Below are positions 4,331 to 43,060 of a DNA stretch of 64,000 bases, piece by piece. The stretch covers positions 1,700,411 through 1,764,410 of the forward strand of contig RPFO01000114.1 in assembly GCA_009746045.1 (NCBI GenBank), written 5' to 3'. Made by a program: the position numbers and the translations under genes. The notes below the pieces were generated by a model that worked only from the letters and a program-made list of their open reading frames with translations, had not been told where the DNA came from and ran no database searches. Numbering within the stretch: position 1 is the stretch's first letter; each line of letters starts with the position of its first letter. Source of the stretch: Mesostigma viride (taxonomy: Eukaryota > Streptophyta > Mesostigmatophyceae > Mesostigmatales > Mesostigmataceae).

Positions 4331-4402
4331 TCATACATAGGGACACTTCTTCAGGATCCTCAGGATATCTCCGACAAGGTGCAGGGAACCCGTAACCAGC
4401 AC
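4331..4402 (-). CDS. FPGS: FPGS exon 14 (terminal)
   Basis: Encodes [20 protein letters not shown] then PYV and TGA. [12 protein letters not shown] is the signature C-terminal motif of FPGS. Acceptor GGTACAG, phase 0 from exon 13. This exon lies 0.8 kb from exon 13 and is easy to miss because it is only 72 bp. Confidence 0.95.
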   Translation of the reverse strand: MLVTGSLHLVGDILRILKKCPYV

Positions 4403-42900: not shown

Positions 42901-43060
42901 TTTCTTTGTCAAAAAACTGCACGTCGGCCACTATTGCAATTCGGTTACTAATGTTGCAATATGCCTGCCGCCAATGCATACCGCTTGTTCGGTTTGTTTC
43001 CTGCAGGAGGGCCCGATGCACAGTCCTGACCCAGAGCACATGGAGGAGATTAAGCTGTAG
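21834..43060 (+). CDS. Type I membrane protein with four PA-like domains, 18 exons
   Basis: Eighteen plus-strand exons join with matching phases into about 916 residues. Order: basic n-region and hydrophobic signal peptide (LVGTILLPWFLLCL, residues 10-30); four repeats of protease-associated (PA) type; a membrane segment (ALIACVVTAGVCALIAAAVV, about 785-806); an Arg-rich stop-transfer; and a cytoplasmic tail ending EEIKL. Each repeat has a G(K/R)(V/I) strand, then a hydrophobic (A/S)AVxxVxxxxD strand: GVLGVVYVD, GAVASVLTA, GAVALVLVN and GASAVLFAN. The second to fourth begin with a Cys cluster (FGDCATC, LDSCGEC, CNDRATCSLC). The fourth is the most typical, with IPSFNVAFSTGKALADAA. PA domains usually bind ligands or cargo in the secretory pathway or on the surface; the actual role here is unknown. 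No protease or RING domain is attached. Exon 2 is the weakest exon. Confidence 0.85.
22464..22505 (+). CDS. PA-protein exon 2 (tentative)
   Basis: After a strong acceptor (cttctctgcag) it reads PYVSQRHRFTSRVE in phase 0. The donor is either GAA|gtgggg here or AGC|gtttgg at 22514; both keep phase 0. An in-frame stop follows at 22542. Confidence 0.5.
22730..22856. repeat. Short repeats in PA-gene intron 2
   Basis: Eight or so copies of ttagtctat separated by 8-15 bases, in loose tandem with period 20-40. Confidence 0.8.
23435..23581 (+). CDS. PA-protein exon 3
   Basis: 49 residues including ADAPLVHLHPSTVTCEEEVI and SKVIYPEEVLASVS. Acceptor ggcag, donor TCA|gtacgt, phase 0. Confidence 0.85.
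24160..24475 (+). CDS. PA-protein exon 4, PA repeat 1
   Basis: Encodes GKIALIEGVACNYTNYGGYF and RGVLGVVYVDPFPGMIPRHL, the first PA-like unit. Acceptor ctgacag after a polypyrimidine run; donor GTTG|gtgggt, which also starts the 34-bp minisatellite. Confidence 0.9.
24476..25330. repeat. 34-bp minisatellite starting at the exon 4 donor
   Basis: About 25 copies of gcggcttgctggttggtggg plus ctatgaatggcgtt. The first bases of the intron, gtgggtta, are themselves part of the repeat, so a sequence like the real donor (gttg|gtgggt) recurs in many units. Confidence 0.97.
25657..25792 (+). CDS. PA-protein exon 5
   Basis: Encodes DEPLISPIITKLFLSSSQAA and NNPNSPLIMGSVAVP. Acceptor gtggcag, donor CCCAG|gtttca, phase 2. 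Confidence 0.88.
26499..26577 (+). CDS. PA-protein exon 6
   Basis: Encodes CLVQAFGDCATCWARPRGPF then LNTDEL, the Cys-cluster lead-in to PA repeat 2. Acceptor ccgccag, donor CTG|gtaaga. It was found because it is the piece that repairs the phase between exons 5 and 7. Confidence 0.8.
27707..27796 (+). CDS. PA-protein exon 7
   Basis: 30 residues, SGKVVFYHYETLADFPLCYT and VYYHLAAIAN, the first strand and helix of PA repeat 2. Acceptor cctgcag, donor AAC|gtaggt. Confidence 0.92.
28504..28582 (+). CDS. PA-protein exon 8
   Basis: Encodes DAGAVASVLTASQFTLSDVP, the second core strand of PA repeat 2. Acceptor ggcacag, donor CCAA|gtaagc. Confidence 0.92.
29935..30048 (+). CDS. PA-protein exon 9
   Basis: Encodes LSAPFFVILRTFADAVDHLV and INTQLALPALVSG. 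Acceptor ccgccag, donor AGCG|gtgcgt. Confidence 0.92.
30049..30420. repeat. Degenerate repeats after exon 9
   Basis: gtgacggatgctggtgt and gtcagcg/gtcagtgg motifs recur through the first 370 bases of intron 9. The latter copy the last bases of exon 9 (ctggtcagcg|gtgcgt). Confidence 0.75.
32383..32642 (+). CDS. PA-protein exon 10
   Basis: 87 residues including AVELEVTEVEMRLFDPDGTI and the Cys cluster PLCASLDSCGECL of repeat 3. Acceptor ctacccag, donor TTG|gtgagg. Confidence 0.93.
32643..33095. repeat. Donor-containing minisatellite after exon 10
   Basis: About 18 copies of a 23- to 25-bp unit, gtttggtgaggaatgggggt and variants. Each has ttggtgag, the same string as the real exon 10 donor (cttg|gtgagg). 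Confidence 0.95.
33507..33655 (+). CDS. PA-protein exon 11, PA repeat 3
   Basis: Encodes RGKVAYLFEDDFPCVHEYGM and EEAGAVALVLVNDRDMTATM. Acceptor ccctcag, donor TTCG|gtaggg, phase 2. Confidence 0.93.
34721..34863 (+). CDS. PA-protein exon 12
   Basis: Encodes GIPSFNIPNHCSTRIEENQT and DGMAGDVDDLITG. IPSFNI is the usual PA strand after the variable loop. Acceptor cctcag, donor ACAG|gtgggt. Confidence 0.93.
34864..35160. repeat. Exon-edge repeat array after exon 12
   Basis: Eight or so copies of gatgacctcaccacaggtgg, i.e. the last 13-16 bases of exon 12 (gacgacctcatcacag) together with its donor gtgggt, decaying with distance. Confidence 0.93.
35521..35699. repeat. Acceptor-side repeat before exon 13
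   Basis: Three near-identical tandem units of about 64 bp, ccccgaccccacctcgccgc with ggcctcttcccctctcctcc, ending at the exon 13 acceptor. Confidence 0.93.
35700..35827 (+). CDS. PA-protein exon 13
   Basis: Encodes RQLQLISTTKVLLPKRLRGV and TPKWSQAVVGDVE. Acceptor cccttcag, donor GAG|gtttgt, phase 0. Confidence 0.9.
36722..36882 (+). CDS. PA-protein exon 14
   Basis: Encodes ILIPFAECNDRATCSLCDRL and AEYIRGRILLFREYQGVCLR, the Cys cluster and first strand of PA repeat 4. Acceptor tccccag, donor TTGAG|gtgcgt. A partial copy of its 5' end lies 130 bp upstream. Confidence 0.92.
37316..37440. repeat. 19-bp repeat in PA-gene intron 14
   Basis: Six copies of catcgcacccactgccccacg with c/t variation. 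Confidence 0.93.
37452..37513. repeat. Interstitial CCCTAAA telomere-type tract
   Basis: Eight CCCTAAA units, two of them mutated (cccttaaccgtaaa in the middle), inside intron 14 of the PA-domain gene. This is the repeat of plant and many algal telomeres. Confidence 0.9.
37877..38076 (+). CDS. PA-protein exon 15, core of PA repeat 4
   Basis: Encodes RFAQENGASAVLFANDEDEV and TIPSFNVAFSTGKALADAAL then NLKVTLVLPQVVNG, the most canonical PA domain of the protein. Acceptor ctcgcag, donor AACG|gtgcgt. Confidence 0.95.
38141..38307. repeat. 10-bp repeat in PA-gene intron 15
   Basis: About 17 copies of tagccatttg/tagccgtttg. Confidence 0.95.
38867..38935 (+). CDS. PA-protein exon 16
   Basis: Encodes VAKDLVGSFSAAEDALRDGG. 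Acceptor cacccccag, donor CAAG|gtgaga. Confidence 0.9.
39378..39625. repeat. 60-bp repeat in PA-gene intron 16
   Basis: Four to five copies of a unit containing cgattgatatggaaccat and aacaactgataaggaacc. Confidence 0.9.
39702..40123 (+). CDS. PA-protein exon 17, membrane segment and tail
   Basis: Ala/Pro-rich stalk, KRALIACVVTAGVCALIAAA membrane helix, YKRHRRRR stop-transfer and a cytoplasmic tail. I end it at ACG|gtgcgt because a phase-0 terminal exon follows at 43007. Without that splice the frame would stop at 40183. Confidence 0.85.
40721..40977. repeat. 257-bp repeat A, copy 1
   Basis: In intron 17 of the PA-domain gene. Repeated with no difference seen by eye at 42103-42359. No coding region or known element recognised. 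Confidence 0.95.
41981..42518. repeat. Repeat B (124 bp) flanking repeat A copy 2
   Basis: Repeat B occurs at 41981-42104 and 42395-42518. Between them lie repeat A copy 2 (42103-42359) and a C-run of 17 followed by tttttgtgtttgtttcta. Layout B-A-polyC-B looks like an insertion of A with a long duplicated flank, or two serial tandem duplications. Confidence 0.95.
43007..43060 (+). CDS. PA-protein exon 18 (terminal)
   Basis: After the acceptor gtttcctgcag it reads EGPMHSPDPEHMEEIKL and TAG in phase 0 from exon 17, a short acidic C-terminus. The alternative is that the protein ends at 40183. Confidence 0.7.
   Translation, partial: EGPMHSPDPEHMEEIKL

Follow-up and report, generated by a model that had tools for sequence, protein, structure and literature searches.

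Introns of Mesostigma viride Carry Local, Unspliced Copies of Their Own Exon-Intron Junctions, More Often of Donors Than of Acceptors

Introduction

Do introns hold copies of the very exon edges that border them, and if so, does the duplication that produces them single out splice junctions? This question is raised by a stretch of 64,000 nucleotides (nt) from the streptophyte Mesostigma viride (GenBank assembly GCA_009746045.1, contig RPFO01000114.1, positions 1,700,411 to 1,764,410 of the forward strand), in the following termed the window, which contains a gene for folylpolyglutamate synthase (FPGS) and a neighboring, unrelated gene encoding a PA-domain protein. A first-pass annotation had proposed that many introns of both genes grew by tandem duplication of their own exon-intron junctions and that this reflects a genome-wide process. 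Here, we show that local, unspliced copies made at the DNA level are present in seven genes on six contigs and that they are more frequent at donors, an illustration of how look-alike splice sites can accumulate within introns. The earlier interpretation as a whole is partly supported.

Materials and Methods

The source assembly comprises 440 Mb in 2243 contigs. In the FPGS model, 12 introns are of the GT-AG type and intron 5 is GC-AG; the protein matches FolC structures over residues ~49-223. The assembled protein of the PA-domain gene contains the Pfam PA domain (2.9e-12), and the stretch from exon E11 to E13, in which exon ends are not settled, is excluded from all counts. Five further genes (gcvP, valS1, valS2, gltB and acnA, the latter examined over part of the gene sequence) were located with Escherichia coli GcvP, ValRS, GltB and AcnA as queries, which had been chosen before the genes were seen, and were modeled with a purpose-written spliced aligner. 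Introns of these genes were retained when they measured at least 100 nt and the exon on each side gave an alignment of 16 or more residues at 38% identity, which left 3 of 5 modeled introns for gcvP, 12 of 18 for valS1, 6 of 16 for valS2, 9 of 16 for gltB and 11 of 18 for acnA. The full set thus comprises 68 introns from seven genes on contigs C1757, C887, C224, C1912, C125 and C1613, a small sample of the genome.

In the edge test, the outer 30 nt of a flanking exon were aligned to the exon's own intron and to dinucleotide shuffles of that intron, with p ≤ 0.01 as the significance cut. The two window genes contributed 27 introns and hence 54 exon edges; FPGS introns are named F4, F10 and F11, and PE4 to PE16 denote the introns of the PA-domain gene that follow exons E4 to E16. 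The number of shuffles per test was 300 for the two-gene set and the first gltB run, 1000 for acnA and for the set comprising first-copy shifts and the gltB rerun, 200 for the gcvP/valS set, the 24-nt profile, the ab initio set and the pooled other-intron control, and 100 for the cross control of the profile.

Exon Edges Recur in Their Own Introns

Copies of exon edges together with the splice site, as described by the first-pass annotation, were confirmed in the introns of both window genes. Significant matches were obtained for 10 of the 54 exon edges, namely for the donors F11, PE4, PE9, PE10, PE13, PE14 and PE16 and for the acceptors F4, F10 and PE13, compared with 1/54 for the reverse complement. 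Sequences from the interior of the same exons gave 2/49, 0/32 and 0/23 at offsets of 30, 60 and 90 nt, respectively. The copies reside in nine introns, three of 13 in FPGS and six of 14 in the PA-domain gene, such that the expression "many introns" fits the latter better than the former. A looser alignment screen of the two genes yielded 33 copies at 19/54 junctions, several of them weak.

The pattern extends beyond the window, as had been suggested, since genes on five other contigs also show junction copies. For gcvP, valS1 and valS2 taken together, 10/21 donor edges and 3/21 acceptor edges were copied. Values for acnA were 2/11 and 0/11, and for gltB 1/9 and 1/9 with 300 shuffles or 1/9 and 2/9 upon the rerun with 1000. 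The extent of junction copying, therefore, differs among genes. Pooled over all seven genes, 20/68 donor edges and 8/68 acceptor edges have copies in their own introns, as opposed to 0/68 and 1/68 for the reverse complements, and 25/68 introns contain a copy of at least one of their own exon edges. The comparison with foreign introns that had been put forward as a check gave 7/816 donor matches (12 introns sampled per intron, the same gene being allowed). Exon-interior controls gave 4/66 (donor side) and 1/65 (acceptor side) at offset 30 and 1/51 and 0/47 at offset 60. With a stricter cut of p ≤ 0.002, 16/68 donors and 7/68 acceptors remained, while the reverse complements gave none on either side and the interior controls 3/66 and 0/65 at offset 30 and none at offset 60. 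The donor-side matches at offset 30 fit copies that extend more than 30 nt into the exon.

A further set of exons predicted ab initio at six loci was also counted (donor 7/34, acceptor 2/33; reverse complement 0/34 and 1/33; interior 0/32 and 0/31 at offset 30, 2/28 and 0/27 at offset 60). This set was not pooled with the others because its exon ends are predictions, its C1912 part overlaps the ValRS set and one poly-E exon was dropped.

The Copies Are Derived From Genomic, Unspliced DNA

When alignments were seeded with exon sequence only, they ran on into matching intron bases, with identities of 0.93 to 0.73 at positions +1 to +8 (30 donor copies, 14 introns). Intron bases that are carried along in this way indicate genomic, unspliced DNA as the source and not spliced RNA. 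Exon edge and splice site are thus copied locally at the DNA level. With 60 exon nt offered, up to 48 were included in the alignments. Averaged by intron, identity at +1 to +8 amounted to 0.86, 0.87, 0.75, 0.71, 0.86, 0.76, 0.74 and 0.56, and the exon part of the copies reached 0.82 (14 introns). Among acceptor copies, AG is kept in 9/12 and positions -8 to -4 match poorly (0.33 to 0.67). Copies tend to lie close to the edge from which they stem, 33/40 donor and 10/15 acceptor copies residing in the nearest 40% of the intron (48 introns, five genes).

Because the exons from which the copied edges are taken align with E. coli ValRS, GcvP, GltB and AcnA, the exon is identified as the source of the copy. 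The divergence between copy and exon edge is 5-30% in most cases, and a few short copies are identical. Mismatch rates at codon positions 1, 2 and 3 were 0.133, 0.113 and 0.199, respectively, whereby copies of one array are not independent; the ratio for position 3 is 1.6 (bootstrap over introns 1.1 to 2.2). An excess of this kind would be predicted for a constrained exon whose copy can change freely. The possibility that the copies are coding-constrained alternative exons was also considered and is rejected, since the mismatches are distributed as in near-neutral copies whose source exon is under constraint. Neither is there any sign of in-frame use of decoy sites, the shifts of donor copies being distributed as 14, 11 and 15 over the three values modulo 3.

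Probable Local Tandem Duplication Across the Junctions

Direct duplication is present in most of the introns studied. In 48 introns from five genes, each taken with 60 nt of exon on either side, duplication diagonals with shifts of 8-700 numbered 1080 in direct and 39 in inverted orientation and zero in shuffled sequence, arrays being counted many times, and direct repeats were found in 38/48. A sliding profile of 24-nt windows in the same 48 introns showed that the windows covering the donor (-16 to +8 and -8 to +16) are duplicated in 17/48 and 18/48 cases, compared with 9-16/48 over the first 216 intron nt, 4-11/48 over the last 200 nt, 6-7/48 at the acceptor and 0/44 in the exon from -64 to -40. 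Against other introns, the values were 2.1% of 420 for the donor and 1.2% for the acceptor. Farther than 200 nt from the intron ends, 40% of 828 windows are duplicated in the two window genes, mostly in arrays; for the three genes added next, the share is 23% of 349, concentrated in few introns (per-intron median 0). Duplication runs over the junctions, which are not proven hot spots, as intron DNA is duplicated about as often.

Several statements of the first-pass annotation have to be modified on this basis. Growth of introns by junction duplication was not borne out, because introns with and without copies do not differ in length (median 752 and 765 nt, p = 0.71, 57 introns). A decay of the copies with distance is seen in single arrays, e.g., at the PE13 acceptor, and not overall (rho +0.15, p = 0.26; 55 copies, 48 introns, five genes). 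The idea that the copies often seed the minisatellites of the introns proved overstated. Four arrays detected with Tandem Repeats Finder (TRF) overlap an exon end in the two genes (7371-7576 by 27 nt, 32640-33095 by 3 nt, 34845-34975 by 19 nt and 38815-38874 by 8 nt), while the other TRF arrays listed inside these genes do not.

We consider it probable, at roughly 70%, that the copies result from local tandem duplication that reaches some tens of nt into exons and is tolerated as long as the exon-proximal donor is used. According to this explanation, introns would undergo frequent local tandem duplication, mostly in units of some tens to ~180 nt, and some units would cross an exon-intron junction and carry tens of exon nt (at most 48 observed) plus the splice site with them. 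The copy would end up in the intron and decay in a roughly neutral fashion, and the exon would be held by selection, so that exon-derived copies stay recognizable. A copied donor may be tolerated because the proximal donor still joins the correct coding sequence and the copy becomes intron. A copied acceptor, on the other hand, comes to lie upstream of the real one and, counted from the branch point, could be the first to be encountered; the greater harm that such copies may do would account for the excess at donors. They may be weeded out more often or survive without a working polypyrimidine tract. Both this selective filter and the mutational step, be it slippage or microhomology repair, are inferred. 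Given near-identical donors in near-identical exon context, the choice of donor would have to depend largely on position, e.g., on being the 5'-most site.

A number of observations sit less comfortably with this explanation. The bias toward donors is modest (Fisher p = 0.019), and copying is less pronounced in gltB and acnA. The donor peak in the 24-nt profile is somewhat higher than expected from plain background. By intron, positions +1, +2 and +5 of the donor are kept better than +3, +4 and +6, a mild hint that donor signals are retained. The shift to the first copy is 36-391 nt (median 98) at 17 donor junctions and 76-978 nt at eight acceptor junctions and often lies near 100 nt (7/17 donors at 87-106, 6/8 acceptors at 76-128), a descriptive result; clustering of this kind is not predicted by simple slippage. 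The locality of the copies refers to the 68 introns that were compared, and use of the proximal donor is inferred from protein continuity.

Alternative Explanations

The strongest competitor is a junction-targeted process, in which the donor would be a mutational hot spot because transcribed DNA breaks or forms R-loops close to the 5' splice site. The donor peak of the duplication profile fits this proposal, and so does base composition, the 62 introns of 400 nt or more having a G-rich beginning (median GC skew +0.23 over nt 10-200) and a C-rich end (-0.16). However, intron bodies are duplicated as much as the donors, acceptors lack a peak and skew does not differ significantly between introns with and without donor copies (0.28 vs. 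0.14, p = 0.42). Part of the donor peak may also be due to detection, because the exon that serves as a reference does not decay and copies of it stay visible. All in all, we regard a targeted process as unlikely.

It is still less probable that the copied donors are functional decoys under selection, for example as additional U1 binding sites that aid splicing or shield a long intron. GT is intact in 27/29 donor copies, 17/29 equal or exceed the real donor when scored with a matrix derived from 48 real donors in this set of introns, and the preferential conservation of +1, +2 and +5 mentioned above would be in line with such a function. Counted by intron, an intact-GT decoy is present in 14/15, and a decoy at least as strong as the real donor in 7/15. 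These figures lose weight because 10 of the 29 copies come from a single ValRS array (valS1_i3), which also accounts for ten of the 12 copies with an identical 11-mer. In addition, the by-intron identity at GT (0.86-0.87) is close to that of the exon part, and 48/68 donors are without a significant copy.

A third explanation, which we judge very improbable, holds that the copies are relics of intron birth, left either by insertion of an introner or by a Rogers-type event, in which an exon segment with AGGT is duplicated in tandem. Tandem copies of exon segments inside introns are indeed a mark of Rogers-type gains, but the copies described here extend into the intron and not into the next exon, and among the 68 introns none was found to lie between two copies of an exon segment. 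Alignments that span the spliced junction by at least 8 nt numbered four. Upon inspection, these were dismissed as acceptor copies plus chance letters (F10, valS1_i9) or as a simple 9-nt array (two in valS1_i10), such that no convincing case remains. Introners require families of similar introns; sequence is shared by only 2/2278 intron pairs, in one case an internal 1.8-kb element and in the other a 44-nt match, and no group of introns alike up to both splice boundaries emerged from the 2278 pairs. Chance, low complexity or assembly error can practically be dismissed, because, in spite of the richness of the introns in simple arrays and of isolated control matches (4/66 on the donor side at exon offset 30 and 2/28 at offset 60 in the ab initio set), the controls with reverse complements, other introns and, for the most part, exon interiors stay close to the nominal level, and assembly error would not produce the divergence seen in most copies.

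Individual Copies and Other Features of the Window

The copies found in the two window genes are listed in Table 1.

Table 1. Genes and junction copies in the window (positions are those of the window; fractions are matching positions per aligned length).
Feature	Position	Strand	Details
FPGS gene	4331..20965	-	14 exons, 13 introns, single open 603-aa frame
FPGS intron 11, donor copies	7258..7549	-	7417-7472 (49/56; 27 exon nt, donor and intron start), 7320-7364 (32/45), 7258-7295 (32/40); all keep GT; p 0.003
FPGS intron 10, acceptor and exon-start copy	7811..7832	-	20/22; AG changed to AA; p 0.003
FPGS intron 4, copy of acceptor and 30 exon nt	15300..15338	-	31/39; AG intact; p 0.003
PA-domain gene	23435..43060	+	16 phase-consistent exons placed (E1-E11, E13-E17)
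PA-domain gene, intron after E4, copy of exon end and GT	26644..26666	+	19/23; p 0.010
PA-domain gene, intron after E9, exon-end copies	33838..34029	+	33838-33880 (34/43), 33981-34029 (35/49); p 0.003
PA-domain gene, intron after E10, donor array	34845..35156	+	Copies 34925-34975, 35036-35063, 35091-35108, 35132-35156; tandem array begins 19 nt within exon; p 0.007
PA-domain gene, E13 acceptor and exon-start copy	36570..36619	+	~150 nt upstream; by eye, outside counted set
PA-domain gene, intron after E13, short exon-end copy	36900..36919	+	Shift ~52 nt; coordinates read from sequence; p 0.003
PA-domain gene, intron before E14, four acceptor and exon-start copies	37241..37787	+	37241-37274 (25/34), 37542-37568 (24/27, AG changed to AA), 37651-37677 (24/27), 37753-37787 (33/35); p 0.003
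PA-domain gene, intron after E14, copy of 40 exon nt and donor	38428..38479	+	42/52; p 0.003
PA-domain gene, intron after E16, donor copies	40196..40480	+	40196-40225 (24/30, GT lost), 40452-40480 (27/29, GT kept); p 0.003

Apart from junction copies, the PA-domain gene harbors two further elements within introns. A short array of AACCCTA, the plant-type telomere unit, is located at 37454-37513. The last intron contains the 1.8-kb element (40723-42518), for which a counterpart of 98.7% identity lies in reverse orientation in the first modeled intron of ValRS (contig C224). Two pairs of 100% identical direct repeats are present in the element, one of 257 nt (40721-40977 and 42103-42359) and one of 124 nt (41981-42104 and 42395-42518), and it is possibly nested or similar to long terminal repeat elements.

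Farther along the window, retroelement-like frames occupy 54422-59588 and include, according to Pfam, a PHD finger (54422-55207) and a reverse transcriptase (57342-59585). Four tandem units of 170 bp are situated just upstream (53626-54313). With regard to the searches for additional genes, contigs C557 (GltB) and C2011 (AcnA, ValRS) gave bacteria-like matches with long open frames; these contigs within the assembly are probably either bacterial or the result of recent transfer.

Comparison With Known Systems

The nearest known kind of event is internal gene duplication, here in a short and frequent form that is commoner at donors. As Gao and Lynch reportedly set out in PNAS in 2009, gene segments that include parts of introns and exons are duplicated locally in such events. 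The copies described here likewise lie in the same gene and in direct orientation and include unspliced intron sequence. They differ in that the units are short, that many junctions of some genes are affected, donors more than others, and that the exon structure is unchanged as judged by protein alignment.

Intronic minisatellites share with the present arrays the head-to-tail arrangement, and four arrays overlap an exon end. On the other hand, many junction copies are few in number and diverged, their unit includes coding sequence, and the other copied junctions are without such an overlapping TRF array.

Rogers-type gains (Hellsten 2011, as described in PMC4974935 and PMC3443670) resemble our case in that tandem-duplicated exon sequence ends up in an intron; an intron of fission yeast encompasses a 24-bp exon segment in four copies (PMC4974935). 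In M. viride no new intron is formed, and it is the exon edge plus the existing donor plus the intron start that is copied, not an AGGT segment bounding a new intron. Introners (PMC9860276) are similar as a process that affects many introns of one genome, whereas the introns compared here share almost no sequence and each copy stems from its own junction. A description of own-junction copies across introns of many genes was not found in the literature covered, which leaves subscription papers mostly outside and is no proof of absence.

Implications

A more far-reaching view would be that duplication targets 5' splice sites, or is retained there by preference, in steps of typically ~100 nt. About three in ten introns would then contain further copies of the donor that belongs to them, each in a near-identical exon setting, and the donor would be chosen by position alone, the 5'-most one winning. 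We hold this to be a tentative and rather doubtful proposition. If it is true, donor choice could be studied in M. viride as in an experiment set up by nature, and new exon ends would have a source that is constantly at hand.

If the rate of 20/68 holds genome-wide, about three in ten donors would lie upstream of copies of themselves, a few of which are identical over 11 nt. A single genome could then be used to address how the spliceosome settles on one of several 5' splice sites that are near-identical in both sequence and surroundings, and also which share of intron DNA originates from the host gene itself as opposed to transposons. The exon-derived copies may serve as fossils for which a conserved reference is available, and gene prediction in such genomes may choose decoy donors.

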